IMG/VR virus record: IMGVR_UViG_3300033146_004475
Location: 1-64,000 of that record
DNA length: 64,000 nucleotides
Direction: 5' to 3' (one strand)
Origin: a virus
A program made the translations under genes and the position numbers. This document shows positions 21,415 to 36,166 of this stretch, piece by piece. The notes under the pieces were generated by a model. The model worked only from the letters and a program-made list of their open reading frames with translations. It did no database searches and was not told the origin of the DNA. Every line of letters begins with the position of its first letter. Position 1 is the stretch's first letter.

Positions 21415-22755
21415 ATGACAAGGATTCTTTCGGACGTATTAAAAGATGATATGGATATTGATACTACTGACAGTGAGGTATTGAAATTTGGTGGTGTGGA
21501 TGATCATGTTGAAATTAATAAATCAACTGGACATTTCAAATTAAAAGGAGATGCTGCTGTTTTTGATGATATGAGAACAAGCCCTCTGAGTGCAGCAAAC
21601 ACAGGAGCAAGAAGTCCTGCTCTTGAAACAGTAGCTAATGATGGATCAGTTGGAGAAGATTACTGTGTTGATTTTACAGGAGGTCATGGATTAATATCAT
21701 CATACACTAATTTAAATAGCACGGATGAATACACAGTAGAGTTTTGGCTTAATCCAGATAGTGTACAAAATGCAGTATTATTCTGGAGAGATGCGTTTAT
21801 TGAAATCAGTGTTGCTTATAAGGATGTTGTAGTTTCAATAGATAATAGCTGGAATGTAAGAAGTAATGATGGTTTAGTTGCAGGACAAACACAGCACATA
21901 GTTGTTACAATAGATTATGATGGGTCTAGCACAAATATTTATATTTATGTAAACGGGCAAGAAATACATAATGATTCTGTTTGGGGCAAACAGTTAGCTG
22001 CCAGTACAAGTGATGTTTATATTGGGTCAAGACCAAATGGAAATAAGGCTTTAGATGGTAGAATAGATAATCTTATATGTTATAACAAAGCATTAACTCA
22101 AGCACAAGTCACGGAAAGATACAATAATGGGGGAGGCACTACAGTAGTTCCTACTGGGATTGTAGAATCAACTGATGTTGTGATGAGATTTGACTTTGAT
22201 GAGGGTTCAGGTTCAACCGTTGATAATGGCTGTACTCTTGGAGCAGGAGAAGATATGACTTTGAGTAATTCTTACGATTGGGTTGAAGGATTACTTGGTA
22301 CTACAACCGGATCACTTGGTGTCATGGCTTTAGCTTTTGTCCCAAGTGTTATAACAGAGATATTTGGGTCAGTACAATTTAGTCATAAATATAAAGAAGG
22401 CACAATTATATATCCCCATGTTCATTGGGCAAGTCCTGATCTTCTTGTAGGGGATATTGTATGGAAACTTGAGTATTTATGGGTAAATGTAGGAGGTATA
22501 CTGCAAGCAAATACTAGCATGGTTTCCAGAACAGTTGCTAATAATACTGTTACTGCTGGATTGCATAGAATGACAAATATTCCATTAGCTGGAATAGCTG
22601 GAACAGGTATGAAAATTTCAAGTGTTTTGCAGTACAGATTATACAGAGATGGTGCAGATGCTGCCGATACTTATACAGGAAAAGTTTATTTAAGTGAATT
22701 TGATATTCATTTTGAAGTTGATACTATCGGGTCTAATACTGTTGGTGTCAAATAA
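21415..22755 (+). CDS. LamG/concanavalin-like receptor-binding tail protein candidate
   Basis: 446 residues, TAGGAGGAC site. Residues about 60-245 form a LamG-type jelly roll: EYTVEFWLNPDSVQNAVLFW, QTQHIVVTIDYDGSSTNIYI, VYIGSRPNGNKALDGRIDNL, then the family closing motif NKALTQAQVTERYNNG. The remaining 190 residues are a separate beta domain (PHVHWASPDLL, AGLHRMTNIPLAG) seen at the end of phage structural polypeptides. It is the last gene before the terminator, a usual place for receptor-binding proteins. Sugar binding is inferred from fold. Confidence 0.65.
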   Translation: MTRILSDVLKDDMDIDTTDSEVLKFGGVDDHVEINKSTGHFKLKGDAAVFDDMRTSPLSAANTGARSPALETVANDGSVGEDYCVDFTGGHGLISSYTNLNSTDEYTVEFWLNPDSVQNAVLFWRDAFIEISVAYKDVVVSIDNSWNVRSNDGLVAGQTQHIVVTIDYDGSSTNIYIYVNGQEIHNDSVWGKQLAASTSDVYIGSRPNGNKALDGRIDNLICYNKALTQAQVTERYNNGGGTTVVPTGIVESTDVVMRFDFDEGSGSTVDNGCTLGAGEDMTLSNSYDWVEGLLGTTTGSLGVMALAFVPSVITEIFGSVQFSHKYKEGTIIYPHVHWASPDLLVGDIVWKLEYLWVNVGGILQANTSMVSRTVANNTVTAGLHRMTNIPLAGIAGTGMKISSVLQYRLYRDGADAADTYTGKVYLSEFDIHFEVDTIGSNTVGVK

Positions 22756-22765
22756 GAGTAACCAC

Positions 22766-22898
22766 CCTGTAATTTTTATCTCTCCCCTTGAGTCGGCCAA
22801 GGAAAAATTACAGGAATCCAGACAGCAAGAAGTAGACTTCTTGGTATTTTGAGATTTGGCTTCTCAAAATCACTTCTTGTACTGTCTGGTGGTTTTTA
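22766..22898 (+). terminator. Structured terminator RNA at the end of the tail operon
   Basis: Two nested structures follow the LamG gene. First, CCTGTAATTTTT (22766-22777) pairs with 22803-22814, with an inner CCTTG/CAAGG stem. Second, CCAGACAG (22818-22825) pairs with CTGTCTGG (22882-22889), followed by TGGTTTTT. Inside it are two hairpins, 22826-22833 with 22836-22843 and 22847-22853 with 22863-22869. A second copy of ACTTCTTG at 22872-22879 can pair with the same 22826-22833 strand. Termination is likely; a regulatory role is possible. Confidence 0.65.
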
Positions 22899-23003
22899 GT
22901 TTAATGAAATTCTTGCTTTTACTTTCGTTAAATGATAGATTTCAAAATAAAGTAGGACGTTGTTTTATAATTGATGATGTAACTTTAGATTGGACTATTT
23001 ACA

Positions 23004-23270
23004 ATGGATGATAAAATAATTGATCGGGTATTTTCTGAATTAGATAACCATTCCAGTAGATTAGTAGATTTATCTGAAATTGTCCATGCAAATGCTGCAA
23101 TTTTAGGAATGGTATCAAAACTTGTTGTAGCTATAATTTTATTTATAGTTATTACAAGTTTAGGTACTTTTTATAATTACTTTACTAAAGGTCCTGTACT
23201 ATATCATAGACAAATTATACCAATTGAAAAAGGTGTTGTCCCAGGGGACCAATCAAGGGGAGGTTCCTAA
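23004..23270 (+). CDS. Holin-like single-span membrane protein
   Basis: 88 residues. An acidic N-terminal helix is followed by one membrane segment, about residues 35-60 (VSKLVVAIILFIVITSLGTF), and a charged tail. First gene after the operon terminator and at the head of the lysis cassette. No clear ribosome site is seen. A holin or accessory lysis role is inferred from topology and position. Confidence 0.5.
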   Translation: MDDKIIDRVFSELDNHSSRLVDLSEIVHANAAILGMVSKLVVAIILFIVITSLGTFYNYFTKGPVLYHRQIIPIEKGVVPGDQSRGGS

Positions 23271-23271
23271 A

Positions 23272-24006
23272 ATGTCACTTACTTCCGTTCGTAATTTTTT
23301 AATTTCTTTTTTTAATCCTGATATAGCTGCAAGTATTTTAGTAGACGAGATAAAAGAGCAAAGAAACCGAATCAAAAACTTGAAAGAAGAGTACAAATCA
23401 TTATCAAAATGGAATCATCAATATGTATCTACTTTAAGTTTATTAACTGAAGCAATGGAAGCTTTAATATGGAAAAAAGATAAAAATCATAAATATATTT
23501 TAGCTAATCCTTTGCATTGTAAAACTTTTTTTGGGTATGATAAAGCATATGATTGTTTAGATTCTATTGTAGGCAAGACAGATAACGAATTAATTGAATT
23601 AAATTTTGAACAGTTAGGCATACAAAATACATTCGGTAAAGTTTGTTTAATTTCAGATACATTTACAATGTTGAATAAAGGAGCATCTCATTTTTTAGAA
23701 GCAGGAATGGTTGATGGAAAAGAATTTTTATTTTACTCCGTAAAAACTTCACAGTTTACAAGTAAAAATGAGTTTGTTGGATCAATAGGAATGGCTTGGG
23801 ATTTGACAAATCAATCTGATTTTTTAATAAGTCAACTAAATAGATGGATATATGCAAAAAAAGTAACTAAACTATTCCATAAAAAAGATGTATTTTGTTA
23901 TGCAATAACGCCTGAAATTAGAAAATGTAGTGTATTTCACCATCTTTGTCCAGATCCAGAAAGAGGAAAAGTATGTGATGATAATTGTAGTTCTTATTTT
24001 GACTAA
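23272..24006 (+). CDS. PAS-domain protein with Cys-rich tail
   Basis: 244 residues from ATG 23272, chosen for AAGGGGAGG upstream. A short hydrophobic N-terminus (VRNFLISFFNPDIAASIL) is followed by a coil, about 20-45. A PAS fold covers about 46-165: EALIWKKDKNHKYILANPL, then DSIVGKTDNELI, and VGSIGMAWDLTNQ. The last 40 residues hold five or six Cys with two His (CSVFHHLCPDPERGKVCDDNC), suggesting a metal site. PAS domains sense ligands, redox or light in host regulators. In a phage lysis cassette this is unusual. No output domain is present. Confidence 0.65.
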   Translation: MSLTSVRNFLISFFNPDIAASILVDEIKEQRNRIKNLKEEYKSLSKWNHQYVSTLSLLTEAMEALIWKKDKNHKYILANPLHCKTFFGYDKAYDCLDSIVGKTDNELIELNFEQLGIQNTFGKVCLISDTFTMLNKGASHFLEAGMVDGKEFLFYSVKTSQFTSKNEFVGSIGMAWDLTNQSDFLISQLNRWIYAKKVTKLFHKKDVFCYAITPEIRKCSVFHHLCPDPERGKVCDDNCSSYFD

Positions 24007-28181: not shown

Positions 28182-28349
28182 TTATCCCCCTATTCTTAAT
28201 TTGGCCAATTCTTCAACATAACCATAAATATGGAGTCCTTTGCTACTTGCACAAATTGGACCAGATTTGACTCCTATTTCGTCAGCCATCGTTTTTTGAA
28301 GAACAGCAATTCCCGCCAAGTTTGCAGGAAAACCATTAGGATAAATCAT
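28182..28349 (-). pseudogene. 55-residue ThyA-like C-terminal remnant
   Basis: An ATG at 28349, inside the end of thyX, opens a 55-residue frame: YPNGFPANLAGIAVLQKTM, then ADEIGVKSGPICASSKGLHIY and GYVEELAKL. This matches the last 50 residues of ThyA-family enzymes (thymidylate synthase or dCMP hydroxymethylase), where 'AN..G...LQ..A..IGV..G....S...H.Y' is conserved. The catalytic Cys-containing region is absent, so it cannot be an active enzyme. It is either a remnant of a replaced ThyA or a retained small domain with a new use. Confidence 0.55.
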
Positions 28350-28962
28350 CAAACACCACCGGCAATTGTTGTTTTAATTTTATAAGTAAAGGCTCCATTA
28401 GTTTTCTTATTTGAGGATGAGCAGCTTTTGAGGTTCTGAGTTTGAAAATGTGCCTCCATTCTCTAATGTTAGCCTTAACAACTATTTCAGTTTTAAGTGA
28501 ATTAGGTAAAACTTCTCGTGCTTGTTCTGGTCTCCATCCTTTATTTATAAGATTAATATAATGACGTTCTGCTGATTCCATAGCATGAATCCATTCTAAT
28601 TCAGGAGATTCTATCTGTGGAGTAGTGTTGATTTCGTCGGTAAAATTGCCCCAAACAGGCTTGATAAATTCAACTCCCTTTTTATAATTTACATAACGAG
28701 TAGATTCTTGTCCGAAACTGCATAATCTATGACGGACAAGTTCATGTGTAACTCCTCTATTGGTGATAAATTTAACTATTATATCCCCAAATTCTATCAT
28801 TGCATGATGCCCTCTATTTATTAACATTTGGGTAAATTTTGAGGATGAGTTTGTTGTTATCTTATTTTCGGATTTGTAACAAGTTCTTCCAACGATTTCA
28901 ATGGTTTCTAATACATCATTAGGTAAACTAATAATTTTATGGCTTTGATTGATTATTTTCAT
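28336..28962 (-). CDS. thyX: Flavin-dependent thymidylate synthase
   Basis: 208 residues. The ThyX motif RHRxxSxxxxSxRY is present as RHRLCSFGQESTRY (77-90). H52/H53 and a C-terminal REWRHIFKLR segment also match the family. It makes dTMP from dUMP using FAD and methylenetetrahydrofolate. It overlaps a ThyA-like remnant by 14 bases. The UDG-like polymerase domain and dCMP deaminase elsewhere suggest that the phage manages uracil and thymine pools actively. Confidence 0.9.
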   Translation of the reverse strand: MKIINQSHKIISLPNDVLETIEIVGRTCYKSENKITTNSSSKFTQMLINRGHHAMIEFGDIIVKFITNRGVTHELVRHRLCSFGQESTRYVNYKKGVEFIKPVWGNFTDEINTTPQIESPELEWIHAMESAERHYINLINKGWRPEQAREVLPNSLKTEIVVKANIREWRHIFKLRTSKAAHPQIRKLMEPLLIKLKQQLPVVFDDLS

Positions 28963-30823: not shown

Positions 30824-31168
30824 TTAGGTTTGTCTATCAGAAGTAATCAAAGCTTTTGCTATCCACTCAATTGCTTGTTCCCTACAAATATGAAAAACTC
30901 CTTCAGCATCTCTTGGATCTATTGCCCATAATCGAATGTGGATTAATTCATGGACTAAATCTAATTCTGGATCATTCTCTGCCGAATCCGATTTTTGTCG
31001 ATCATTTAAAGCTTTTATTCTGATATCTGCCATCTGAACTTGATTTTGTAAATATGTACTTCCTAAATTATCATTCATATTTCTTGCAGTGTCGAATTTA
31101 ATAGTAATATTCCAATCAGAAAGTCCCAATCTTGATTGCCATTTTTTTAACATTTTTTCAAGATCCAT
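30824..31168 (-). CDS. Small HExxH metallopeptidase-like protein
   Basis: 114 residues. A gluzincin-type motif LVHELIHIRL (H80, E81, H84) follows a short beta N-terminus (WNITIKFD) and is followed by a helix carrying EQAIEWIAKAL, with a Glu suited to be the third ligand. This is the compact layout of SprT-like and other phage minimal metallopeptidases. Substrate unknown. Catalysis is inferred from the motif only. Confidence 0.55.
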   Translation of the reverse strand: MDLEKMLKKWQSRLGLSDWNITIKFDTARNMNDNLGSTYLQNQVQMADIRIKALNDRQKSDSAENDPELDLVHELIHIRLWAIDPRDAEGVFHICREQAIEWIAKALITSDRQT

Positions 31169-31387
31169 TTATTTGTCCTTTTTAATAGATGTAACGGTTT
31201 TTGAAATTTCGTTTGAAATCATCATCTGTAAAGAAAGAATATTCCCTGCAATTATAGTTTTTCGGTTTAAAACCTCATTATACTCTTTCCTTTTTTGTTT
31301 TTTTATTTCAAGTAATTCTTCTTCTGTTTTCAAAAGCAAATCTTGATAAGTGTAAATTATTGGAGCATTAACTGATTTTATCGACAC
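31169..31387 (-). CDS. Small coiled-coil protein next to the Rad50 tail gene
   Basis: 72 residues, mainly a helix (LLKTEEELLEIKKQKRKEYNE). Its start overlaps the stop of the split-Rad50 C-terminal gene by 20 bases, so it is co-translated with the recombination module. Function unknown. Confidence 0.45.
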   Translation of the reverse strand: MSIKSVNAPIIYTYQDLLLKTEEELLEIKKQKRKEYNEVLNRKTIIAGNILSLQMMISNEISKTVTSIKKDK

Positions 31388-31973
31388 GACTAATTCCTCC
31401 TTGTTTTGTTACTTTAAATTTTTTATCAGCATACATTGCCATATTTACAGAATGAGTTACAATTAAAAATTGAATGCCCTTTCCAACTTTACTTAACTCT
31501 TTAATCATCATGGAAGCTCTTTCGTGTTTTGCAAGGGACAAGGCACGGGTTGGTTCATCCAAAATAAGTACATTTCTTGAATCACTCTCCATTTTCCAGT
31601 AAGCAACTCTTAAAGCTAATGAAGTTATATCAGCTACTCCGTATCCACAAGAGTTTAAAGGTGATAGTTTATTGCCATTTTTTTCAAAAAAAAGATCACA
31701 TTCAGTTGAATTTCTCCTTTGTACAAAATCAACTACAAATTTATAAGGATCATCAAAAACAGCAGCTAAAGCACTGGAAACAATTGATTCTACTTTATTT
31801 GATAATTGGGATTGTGTTACTTGTGCTGCCTTTTGCACAATAACACGAGCTTCTTCCAAGTTTTCAAGTTCTGAAAGGTTTTTTTCTAATTCATTTGTGG
31901 TCTTTTTGATCATTTTAGAAATTACTTTCCTATCTTGAATACACTCATTAAGTTTTTCTAATAAATTTTTCAT
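31368..31973 (-). CDS. Rad50/SbcC C-terminal half (split gene)
   Basis: 201 residues. A coil (1-55) leads into the C-terminal ABC lobe: signature helix CGYGVADITSLALRVAYW, Walker B NVLILDEPT with D-loop ALS, and switch IVTHS. The Walker A lobe is missing here and is found in the gene at 33299-34378. The two gene products must pair to make one ATPase head of the Mre11/Rad50 (T4 gp47/gp46-like) nuclease used in end processing and recombination. The start is ATGA-coupled to the small gene upstream. Confidence 0.8.
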   Translation of the reverse strand: MKNLLEKLNECIQDRKVISKMIKKTTNELEKNLSELENLEEARVIVQKAAQVTQSQLSNKVESIVSSALAAVFDDPYKFVVDFVQRRNSTECDLFFEKNGNKLSPLNSCGYGVADITSLALRVAYWKMESDSRNVLILDEPTRALSLAKHERASMMIKELSKVGKGIQFLIVTHSVNMAMYADKKFKVTKQGGISRVDKIS

Positions 31974-32146
31974 ATTGGAAGATATATATACATATAATTA
32001 TACATTGTTTTAGCTGCTTTTTTCCTTTTATATTTTTGAACATATTCTTCCATAGCAGCATCGAATATTTGTCTTTCTTTTTTTGTGAGTAAAACACCTA
32101 CATCATGTTTTCCTCCATTTGGACAAGTTAATTCAATTATTTTCAT
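31970..32146 (-). CDS. Small protein coupled to the Rad50 C-terminal gene
   Basis: 58 residues from ATG 32146, AGAGGTGA upstream. Begins MKIIELTCPNGGKHDVGVLL, then a basic helix (EEYVQKYKRKKAAK) and a Tyr-rich end (YNYMYIYLP). The stop overlaps the next ATG. Function unknown; its place inside the split Mre11/Rad50 cluster is notable. Confidence 0.55.
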   Translation of the reverse strand: MKIIELTCPNGGKHDVGVLLTKKERQIFDAAMEEYVQKYKRKKAAKTMYNYMYIYLPI

Positions 32147-32157
32147 AAATCACCTCT

Positions 32158-32385
32158 TTAAAGTAAATGTTCATATTGTTTTTTAAATTTATCAACTCCT
32201 GCATCGTAGTATTTTTCCATTTTCTGCAATTTTAATTTCATTTTCTTTTTTTCTTTTTTAGCAGCTTCAAGAGAATTAAAACCTAACTTTTTAAGACTCT
32301 CAACAAGCATAGATTTTTGGCCTAATAATTGGTTATACTCTTGTTCTGCATCTTGAATTTTCTGTTTAATTTGAATTAAATTCAT
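32158..32385 (-). CDS. Coiled-coil protein, possible detached Rad50 coil
   Basis: 75 residues, a continuous coiled coil (MNLIQIKQKIQDAEQEYNQ, then EAAKKEKKKMKLKLQKMEKYY). It lies between the Mre11 gene and the Rad50 C-terminal gene. It could be the missing returning coil of the split Rad50, or an unrelated helper. No CxxC hook is present in it. Confidence 0.5.
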   Translation of the reverse strand: MNLIQIKQKIQDAEQEYNQLLGQKSMLVESLKKLGFNSLEAAKKEKKKMKLKLQKMEKYYDAGVDKFKKQYEHLL

Positions 32386-33296
32386 TTACTTATCCTTTCC
32401 ATTGTTTGGTTAATTAGTTCTTTAACTGCTTTAGATGGATCTGCTTGTTCTATCACACTGGATAAAATTCGTTTAAAATTAGGTCGTTCTTGATCAGTTT
32501 TTGGCAAAGAGTTAATAAATTTTGATATTTTTGCTTCTGCTTCTTTTTTAGCTTCTTTCTTCATTTCTTCAATGGTAATTTTTGAAAAGTCGAAAACATC
32601 ATCAGGATCTTCAATATGTAAATGTATTCTGTCAAATTTCCAACCCTTTGTATCTATCAAATAAACTCCCGGTTTAAAATCTATTTGATCTTTGCTGGAT
32701 CTCATCATACTTCCACAATTTATTTGATATCTGCCTTCTCCTGTTACGATATGAGGCAAGTGGTTATCTCCACTCACTATTACTTTTGCCCAAGGGTACT
32801 TTCTCATTATTGCAGCAGCAGTGGAGAAATCTTTTTGACCTGGCCATAGTTCTCCTTTATACGTTATCATCCTATGAGTTATCAAAATATCAGCTTCTTC
32901 TTGTGGTTCATCATTCCACCCTGATCCAATAAATGAAATTCCATAATACTTTGTTTTCATTGTACTGGATAAAATTTTTATAACTCCAGCAGCTTGTAAA
33001 ATTCCTAATGGAGTATTGTCTAATCCTCCTACATGGAATAACAAATCGTGCTGCCCTGGAACAACATAGATATCAACATCATACTTTTTAATAATTTCAA
33101 TTATCTTTTTTACAACATAATAAGGAGCTTTTGCTGAATCAAAAAAGTCTCCAGCAACAAATAATAATCCGCTGTTATTTTCTGTTATCTGCAAAATTTC
33201 TCTAAACTTAGTTAATACTTGAGAAAAATAATCACCTTTTCTACTTATTGGATTTTTTGATCGTATATGTAAATCTGCTGCAACAATGATTTTCAT
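32382..33296 (-). CDS. Mre11/SbcD-like nuclease
   Basis: 304 residues from ATG 33296, set by AAAGGATAAAA; a longer frame adds ten residues from the overlap with the upstream gene. Calcineurin-type metal motifs are in order: AADLH (D8, H10), AGDFFD, PGQHD (in place of the common GNHD), ILITHR, and SGDNHLPH. It is the nuclease partner of Rad50, cutting DNA ends with Mn2+. It sits between the two halves of the split rad50. Confidence 0.85.
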   Translation of the reverse strand: MKIIVAADLHIRSKNPISRKGDYFSQVLTKFREILQITENNSGLLFVAGDFFDSAKAPYYVVKKIIEIIKKYDVDIYVVPGQHDLLFHVGGLDNTPLGILQAAGVIKILSSTMKTKYYGISFIGSGWNDEPQEEADILITHRMITYKGELWPGQKDFSTAAAIMRKYPWAKVIVSGDNHLPHIVTGEGRYQINCGSMMRSSKDQIDFKPGVYLIDTKGWKFDRIHLHIEDPDDVFDFSKITIEEMKKEAKKEAEAKISKFINSLPKTDQERPNFKRILSSVIEQADPSKAVKELINQTMERISK

Positions 33297-33298
33297 TT

Positions 33299-34378
33299 TT
33301 ATCCTTTGTGTCCACACACAGGGCATCCTTGTGTTTTCAATACTGTTTTGTATTTTGAGTTTAATTTATTAATTACCTCTTTTTGAGTTTTTATTTTATC
33401 ATCAATGGTCTGAATTGAATCAATCTTGTTATTACAAGTTATAATAAACTTCTCAGTCTCTTTGATTTCATCTCTAAGCTTTATTAGCTCATTTAAAGCT
33501 GTTTTAGCTTTTTTTGAATACCCACTATTAGTTAACATCAAATCAAGCTGTATGAGATCATTAATAATGTTTTTGAGTTGATTTAACTTATTTTTCTTTT
33601 GTTTTATTTTGTTTTGTTCAGTATCTAAACTTTTTAGGTTCTCTTTTGCTTTTTTAATGCCTACAAAAGTATCTAATCTGGCTTGAATCAAAGTTGCACT
33701 TTGTATATGGTCTTTTAATTCAAGAAATATTGATACTTGGCTTTTAATTTTTGATTGAAATTCAGTTAATTTTTTGGCAAATTTTTCAGCTTTCAAAACC
33801 CATTTACTGTCTTTTAATTCAGTTTCTTTTTCCTTTATGTCACGTTGAGCATTTTTTATTGTATTACTACAGAATCTTACTTGTTGATTAATATCAGCAA
33901 TGGCTTTATCCATTATCACCAAGCCAGCTACTTTATTAAACTCTTTTGCTACTTGTCCAGGTTTATCAGCTAAAAGAAAATACTGTTGTGTTGGATGTTG
34001 CCCTTGGATATTGACAGATTTTATTTTTGTAATATTTTGTACTTCTTCAGGTACATCTGTTCTTAACGCTTTTAATGGTTCATTAGTATTTATTTGATAA
34101 TGGTTTATTTTACTATTTCTTGCCCTGGTAACTATTTGATTATCATAATTAACTGATACTTGGGTTTTCTTTAATTTATCTTTTTTGTTTTTAGGATCTA
34201 ATTGATTATTTCTATAACTATCTCCTTGTGGTCTGTTTTTTGTATTCCATTCTAAAGCCCTAACAACACTTGACTTTCCAGAATCAGATTCACCTAAGAG
34301 TACATTAACTCCAGGGTGTAAATCAATTTTGGTACAAATGTGTGTTTCAAAATTTTTAATTTCAATTGAATTAATCAT
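33299..34378 (-). CDS. Rad50/SbcC N-terminal half ending at the zinc hook (split gene)
   Basis: 359 residues. N-terminal ABC lobe with Walker A GESDSGKS (29-36) after IEIKNFETH, then a long coil (170-345) and, at the extreme end, CPVCG (352-356), the zinc-hook motif of Rad50. The protein stops four residues later, so the returning coil and C-terminal lobe are in other genes. The split falls exactly at the hook. It is followed by Mre11 with the start 3 bases after the stop. Confidence 0.85.
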   Translation of the reverse strand: MINSIEIKNFETHICTKIDLHPGVNVLLGESDSGKSSVVRALEWNTKNRPQGDSYRNNQLDPKNKKDKLKKTQVSVNYDNQIVTRARNSKINHYQINTNEPLKALRTDVPEEVQNITKIKSVNIQGQHPTQQYFLLADKPGQVAKEFNKVAGLVIMDKAIADINQQVRFCSNTIKNAQRDIKEKETELKDSKWVLKAEKFAKKLTEFQSKIKSQVSIFLELKDHIQSATLIQARLDTFVGIKKAKENLKSLDTEQNKIKQKKNKLNQLKNIINDLIQLDLMLTNSGYSKKAKTALNELIKLRDEIKETEKFIITCNNKIDSIQTIDDKIKTQKEVINKLNSKYKTVLKTQGCPVCGHKG

Positions 34379-34574: not shown

Positions 34575-35255
34575 TTAATTTGTTATTTTTTCTCTTAATA
34601 TCATGTAAAAAACATTTCTTGCTAAAGCCCCAAGATCAATGAAATCGGGTTCTAGTTTATTAAGAGCCATTATTTCAGGTATTTTTTCAAAATTATCATC
34701 AGATATAAGATTACTTAATTCCACGTATGTAAATTTCTGTGGTAAAATTATATTTTCAAAGGAGGGGCGGATGAAGTCTCCGAATGCTTTCAATACAGGA
34801 GCTAAATCAATCAACTCTTTATTTGGGTTTTGAGCCGTTACCCAATAAGCCATAGCCCCCAAAAAATAAGAAAAACTAAAATAAAAAGAAGCAAGTTGGT
34901 ATTTATCTGATATGTCTTTATTTGTTAATTTAGGTGGTGTCGTGACTGTTGCTGTTTTGGCTTCTATTTTTTCGCCTTCACAATTTTTGCACTTTTTATG
35001 AAAACCAAAATCAGAATCCGAATCCAGTACATATTTTGTTCCTTTACAGCAAGGGCAGCGATCTTTTTCTATATCTCCATCGTACACAAATCTAATTCTA
35101 TTTGTTGCTAATTGTCCAAATAATTCAGCTACCGTCATTTTTTCTAATTTTGAAAAAGGCTGGAAACTACTTCCGATTCCGCCAGCATCATTTACTGCTT
35201 TAAAAAGAGAATCATACATTGCAATGCCATTTTTAATTACGGTTTTGAAATCCAT
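34575..35255 (-). CDS. Hypothetical protein with DnaJ-like zinc finger
   Basis: 226 residues. CPCCKGTKYV and CKNCEGEK form one DnaJ-type CxxCxGx(G) pair at about 68-98. The rest is helical with aromatic stretches (LASFYFSFSYFLGAMAYWV). It may bind another protein or RNA through the finger. No family assigned. Confidence 0.5.
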   Translation of the reverse strand: MDFKTVIKNGIAMYDSLFKAVNDAGGIGSSFQPFSKLEKMTVAELFGQLATNRIRFVYDGDIEKDRCPCCKGTKYVLDSDSDFGFHKKCKNCEGEKIEAKTATVTTPPKLTNKDISDKYQLASFYFSFSYFLGAMAYWVTAQNPNKELIDLAPVLKAFGDFIRPSFENIILPQKFTYVELSNLISDDNFEKIPEIMALNKLEPDFIDLGALARNVFYMILREKITN

Positions 35256-35472: not shown

Positions 35473-35679
35473 TTACCATGAATCTTCTAAATTACAAATT
35501 TCACAAATATAATGATCCTTGTGTGAATCATGTCCATTATTTTTCCAATCATGTTCACAAATGTCCTGCAATGATTCAATGGCTTTTTCTATTTTTTTTA
35601 TTTTACTAAGCAAGATAATTTTTTCATCTAACAAAGGGGGAATAATCCTTTTTATATCTTCATTTATTTCAGTTTGCAT
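35473..35679 (-). CDS. Small zinc-binding protein
   Basis: 68 residues: helical start, then CEHDW, HDSHKDHYICEICNLEDSW. His and Cys residues suit a zinc site. This 'C.H.W...C..C' end is common in phage proteins of unknown role. Overlaps the dCMP deaminase stop by eleven bases. Confidence 0.5.
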   Translation of the reverse strand: MQTEINEDIKRIIPPLLDEKIILLSKIKKIEKAIESLQDICEHDWKNNGHDSHKDHYICEICNLEDSW

Positions 35680-36166
35680 TTAAAACCCCCCAATGATGTA
35701 TTTTTTGATCATTGAATTTATGTAACATTATTCCATATTCTAATACTTCACTCAATAAGTTAAAGGAAGCTTCATCAGGATAATCATGTAAGTAAAAAAT
35801 CCCACTTGGTTGAATACTAATTAACTTTCTGGAACAAAGTATACAAGGTTGATGAGTGCAGTAGATTTCACATCCGTGTAAACTGACTCCATGTATTGCA
35901 GCTTGAATAATTAAATTCTCTTCTGCATGGATTGCCCTGCAAACTTCATGCTGTGTTCCTGATTTAATTTTTAATTGCTCTCTTAAACAACCTCCCCTGT
36001 CAATACAATGATCTATTCCAGTAGGTGCTCCATTATAGCCAGTGGCAATTATCCTTTTATCTTTTACTGCAATGGCCCCTATTTGCCTTCGTAAACAAGA
36101 ACTTCTTTGGGAAACTATTTCAGTTAATGTAAAAAAATAATCAGTCCAACTTAATCTTCTAAACAT
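35669..36166 (-). CDS. dCMP deaminase
   Basis: 165 residues. Zinc cytidine-deaminase motifs HAEEN (H80, E82) and PCILC (C108, C111) are present, with GYNGAPTGIDHC, typical of the deoxycytidylate branch. It converts dCMP to dUMP, the substrate of ThyX in the same operon. Confidence 0.9.
   Translation of the reverse strand: MFRRLSWTDYFFTLTEIVSQRSSCLRRQIGAIAVKDKRIIATGYNGAPTGIDHCIDRGGCLREQLKIKSGTQHEVCRAIHAEENLIIQAAIHGVSLHGCEIYCTHQPCILCSRKLISIQPSGIFYLHDYPDEASFNLLSEVLEYGIMLHKFNDQKIHHWGVLNAN

Follow-up and report, generated by a model that had tools for sequence, protein, structure and literature searches.

The closest described systems to the locus analysed here are Rad50/SbcC with Mre11/SbcD, including T4 gp46/gp47, a machinery for repairing DNA breaks. 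Rad50 is viewed as a single polypeptide folded back at the hook, and models in which hook and coil act as a single lever depend on that view. The best structural precedent for a divided Rad50 is 1F2T/1F2U, the engineered catalytic core of P. furiosus Rad50 solved as two polypeptides; its separate A and B chains appeared in the search results. This core gives a laboratory precedent for assembly of the lobes in trans, with N and C as separate chains of one ATPase, as proposed for the split set described below; it is a laboratory construct, whereas the split set is natural and its cut is placed at the hook. No description of a split Rad50 was found in the open-access literature searched, where absence is not proof, and the original prediction had likewise known of no Rad50 of such form. 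Viruses and Bacillota show another kind of rearrangement of the Mre11 and Rad50 genes, namely Mre11/Rad50 fusion proteins in Mimivirus (R555) and others, and one P-loop NTPase segment is missing from the Bacillus phage and Anaerostipes fusions (PMC3175470). Fusion is the opposite of division, and the portions of that article drawn on here describe no split at the hook. Relative to the described one-chain Rad50, a split at the hook appears to be new.

The window (64,000 nucleotides) is part of a viral record of 68,216 bases. Its minus strand carried five ORFs in the coding order N-half, Mre11, coil, 58-aa ORF and C-half, as originally predicted. The Rad50 N-lobe subunit (33299–34378, 359 aa) and C-lobe subunit (31368–31973, 201 aa) were each recognised by profile, fold and motifs. 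Between them lay an Mre11/SbcD-like phosphoesterase (32382–33296, about 304 aa), recognised by profile and motifs, a helical coil subunit (32158–32385, 75 aa) and a small ORF (31970–32146, 58 aa). The gaps were 2–11 nt, and the 4-nt overlaps at Mre11/coil and at small ORF/C made the arrangement resemble a translationally coupled operon. The N and C genes were in different reading frames, each with its own start and its own stop, and the three frames between them contained 44, 36 and 11 stops.

The N subunit had a Walker A motif (GESDSGKS at residue 29), a Q-loop region, descending helices and, at its extreme C-terminus, the zinc-hook motif CPVC (residues 352–355; 33314–33325, minus strand) shortly before the stop codon. 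The C-terminus read CPVCGHKG-stop, and the claim that the gene stops four residues past CPVC was thus confirmed. The N profile matched 1f2t_A and 3aux (E 1.5e-16), and the AlphaFold2 model built from a deep alignment (pLDDT 90.0) retrieved Rad50 and SMC heads in Foldseek, including the Rad50 N chains 9a9j_A/1f2u_A. No SMC-type globular hinge was present in N, whose chain stops at the CxxC instead. The N subunit thus carries the Walker A lobe of Rad50 and, by sequence, the CxxC at the coil apex, where a zinc hook is predicted. Its distal part (residues about 191–340) was made of helical repeats of ~47 residues, and extra copies of this repeat may be present in the bacterial N proteins, which are about 480 aa long.

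The C subunit began with a 70-residue helix, followed by a degenerate signature (NSCGYG), Walker B (LILDEP), a D-loop and an H-loop (VTH), which are the elements of the Rad50 C-lobe. The 201-aa sequence had no Walker A, as had been claimed. The C profile matched 3qkr_B, 1ii8_B and 1f2t_B (E 2e-12); the AlphaFold2 model (deep alignment, pLDDT 95.9) retrieved Rad50 and SMC heads in Foldseek, superposed on 1f2u with a TMt of 0.80–0.82, and had the 1F2T/1F2U chains as its best Rad50 structures. Long C ORFs suggested a coil protein fused to C, but the extensions were stop-to-stop read-back and a separate coil ORF was present. None of the proteins at this locus reached a curated Rad50 cut-off.

The Mre11 protein matched the 1ii7 profile and had the phosphoesterase metal motifs DLH, GDFFD and GQHD and a conserved His between motifs, with GDNH replacing GHxH. 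If its start is MKIIVAADLH, the gene begins two bases past the N stop; an alternative in-frame ATG lies upstream at 33326. The 58-aa ORF had no family match and did not occur at this position in loci L001 and L003; it was rejected as a component on these grounds and is probably an incidental insert. The split set shares with Rad50/SbcC and Mre11/SbcD both lobes, the CxxC hook and an Mre11-type nuclease in the same operon, and the predicted docking of Mre11 on the coil base is a further likeness. It differs in that it has N, C and a probable coil subunit in place of one chain and, in phages, encodes Mre11 between the Rad50 halves.

Several neighbouring genes were identified on the minus strand. 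A 226-aa protein (34575–35255) had CxxC motifs in its N-terminal part, and its C-terminal part matched Pfam Tad5, a type I Thoeris inhibitor, above the cut-off (E 7e-7); judged by this match, the gene beside the split Rad50 is possibly a counter-defence gene. A 114-aa protein with a HELIH motif (30824–31168) gave a weak SprT-like match below the cut-off (E 0.016). Nucleotide-metabolism genes flanked the operon, namely ThyX thymidylate synthase (28336–28962) and dCMP deaminase (35669–36166).

Loci were gathered from viral contigs in seven scans and from genome contigs in one, which gave 353 non-redundant loci with N. Hundreds of phages had the same split set; it was widespread and also bacterial, adjoining recA in many Bacillota, which the original prediction had not recognised. 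The two lobes were on separate ORFs in 353/353 loci, and no ORF among them matched both the N and the C model. Among the intact N genes, 319/325 stopped within 60 residues of the CxxC; the remaining six comprised three with a wider-spaced Cys pair, two broken fragments and one doubtful case (L236). A split by chance is excluded by this conservation. Among the 266 complete sets, 191/193 viral ones had the order N-Mre11-C and 66/73 genomic ones Mre11-N-C; with the coil included, the full order was N-Mre11-coil-C in phages and Mre11-N-coil-C in Bacillota.

Three cultured phages carried the split lobes. In Bacillus phage vB_BboS-125, N, coil and C were gp32, gp34 and gp35 (PHROGs 16465 and 15167), annotated as exonuclease, hypothetical protein and ATPase. 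These are the same genes as in the window, but an AP2-domain gene lies between N and coil, and an unannotated Mre11 lies downstream. This Mre11-like ORF (L005 6809–7924; NC_048735.1 about 22285–23400; 372 aa between stops) sits where the annotation has a gap, after gp36 and before gp37. Microcystis phage Mvi-JY20 had adjacent N, Mre11, a 94-aa ORF and C; the ORF was in the coil position, and the coil model gave no match to it. In Microbacterium phage Magritte (OR553905.1), C lay near 284 (L006 284–934) and N near 93838 (L506 3498–4550), about 93 kb apart. The Magritte N protein had no CxxC, which indicates that the hook is dispensable in some members. AP2/HNH homing-endonuclease-like genes between Rad50 parts were observed in two phages (L002 4324–4866; L005 5107–5679) and may mark insertion hot spots or hint at the origin of the split.

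N and C on one chain were seen only in three Bacillota genomes, in which a single ORF of 684–700 aa encoded Mre11, then the N-lobe, then the C-lobe (L248 2764–4818; L249 3652–5754; L250 4083–6170). These fusions join exactly the three parts that are kept apart in the phage, and they had neither the CxxC hook nor the coil. The L249 fusion adjoined addB.

In the bacterial loci, recA upstream and rny downstream flanked the split set in 57/74 cases, and family models confirmed these neighbours as RecA and RNase Y. The C subunit was found in 65/399 sampled Bacillota genomes and a clear SbcC match in 167; both occurred together in 2/399 genomes, against 27 expected (P=1e-14, a statistic that ignores phylogeny), which suggests that the split set replaces SbcC. 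A TIGR00618 search of 20 split-set genomes detected a full SbcC in Brevibacillus only, which has the phage-type set. A second survey, started from a Thermoactinomyces genome, used the same sample of the phylum and is thus not independent. The split set seems to stand in for the usual SbcCD in many Bacillota.

Covariation between the subunits was analysed by mean-field direct coupling on 255 paired sets (Meff 228), with 18 shuffles of the pairing within source group as control, by which phylogeny is only partly controlled. The strongest couplings included the N–C pairs N20–C170, N181–C22, N128–C111, N18–C186, N14–C194 and N154–C70, and P-loop residues of N coupled with the D-loop of C. In the top L/2, there were 72 inter-protein pairs, while the shuffle maximum was 7. 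Near the head, N and C were in antiparallel register, with 13/20 pairs in one band (shuffle maximum 11), and the coil zone held 18 N–C pairs (shuffle maximum 11). The beta zone held 6 pairs against a shuffle maximum of 5, a narrow margin, and P-loop by D-loop/signature 6 against 2; both zones were picked after the data had been seen, so these two enrichments are weaker. In a three-way model, the top 100 contained 3.7 N–C pairs per 10,000 and 0.4 N–Mre11 pairs (about 9 times fewer), with phylogeny again only partly controlled; this difference in density makes common descent alone an insufficient explanation. Residues 277, 288, 291 and 294 of Mre11 coupled with C 41–53, where Mre11 would be expected to dock at the coil base; this is indirect evidence for C-terminal helices like those by which Mre11/SbcD binds the Rad50 coil base. 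Pairing of the two lobes in trans, which a split had been said to need, was supported by this covariation, which places N and C in one head.

It is highly likely that the locus encodes a multi-subunit Mre11-Rad50 nuclease of SbcCD type, in which Rad50 consists permanently of several chains, each translated separately and assembled in trans. The Rad50 head that works with Mre11 is very probably put together in trans from N and C. In the proposed mechanism, N and C would form a single ABC head on an antiparallel coil base, and ATP would be clamped between two heads of this kind. Mre11 would dock on the coil base as a dimer, using its C-terminal helices; the coil protein would complete the returning coil close to the hook, and one zinc would join the C-termini of two N chains. 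By analogy with T4 gp46/gp47 and SbcCD, opening and closing driven by ATP would give Mre11 access to DNA ends that are to be processed during recombination and replication. Predicted features of this scheme are its stoichiometry, the binding of zinc, the nuclease activity and where exactly the coil subunit sits. The split set would work like SbcCD or gp46/gp47 but without a single Rad50 chain.

In an otherwise identical complex, the coil protein might be a separate regulatory or adaptor subunit and not the returning coil; this is possible but rather unlikely. No homology to the coil that follows the hook in single-chain Rad50 is recognisable in the protein, the lengths do not balance (~190 residues in the N distal helices, ~145 in the C helix plus coil), and the Mre11-N-C fusions have no coil protein, but those fusions are also without coil and hook. 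The coil gene was recognisable in 245/255 sets, usually directly upstream of C, and its couplings with N (K292–E14, 1.38; K245–E14, 1.30) exceeded the maximum of 1.0 in all 16 shuffles and favoured distal N. Residue E14 coupled to N245, N292 and N340, a spacing of about 47 residues that reflects the ~47-residue repeat in N. The suggestion that a third polypeptide supplies the returning coil was partly supported, by the regular presence of the gene and by its coupling to the distal coil of N. With less certainty than the assembly of N and C in trans, the coil protein is a probable contributor to the returning coil, close to the hook.

Other explanations deny the shared head or the division itself. 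Independent action of the lobes, for instance if N were an ATPase that binds DNA and C a regulator, is improbable: each gene is translated alone and Magritte holds the lobes far apart, but neither lobe alone has a full ABC site, the strands and P-loop of N couple with the strands, signature and D-loop of C, both lobes are fused naturally, and 1F2T/1F2U provides a two-chain head. Rejoining of the halves after transcription or translation, by an intron, a programmed frameshift, bypass or a split intein, is very improbable. Rad50 is elsewhere described as one chain, and no result of the analysis favours rejoining; whole genes that vary by lineage (Mre11, AP2/HNH genes, none) separate the halves, the bacterial order differs, the Magritte halves lie about 93 kb apart, and both genes have starts and stops of their own. 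No Rfam intron family matched, and the intron was rejected for want of such a match. A decaying, broken Rad50 gene or a sequencing artefact has a negligible probability. A split gene on a single metagenomic contig could look like this, and no result favours an artefact; this reading was refuted by the conservation of the same split, with the catalytic motifs kept, in 353 loci of phages and bacteria.

With the permanently divided Rad50 preferred, the split set may tentatively be regarded, at somewhat less than even confidence, as a third organisational class of Mre11-Rad50. Its Rad50 would be a stable N + coil + C assembly, serving as a housekeeping DNA-end nuclease that replaces SbcCD in ~1/6 of the sampled Bacillota and exchanged with many phages. 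With chains that end freely at the hook, the ring would be able to open at the apex in a manner impossible for a single-chain Rad50. A natural and widespread cut at the hook raises the question of what purpose an unbroken chain serves there, which is testable with small subunits, and the cultured phages vB_BboS-125, Mvi-JY20 and Magritte offer places to test the split set. Hundreds of phage and bacterial genes annotated as hypothetical gain names, and the split set is a possible reason why many Bacillota are without a recognisable SbcC.
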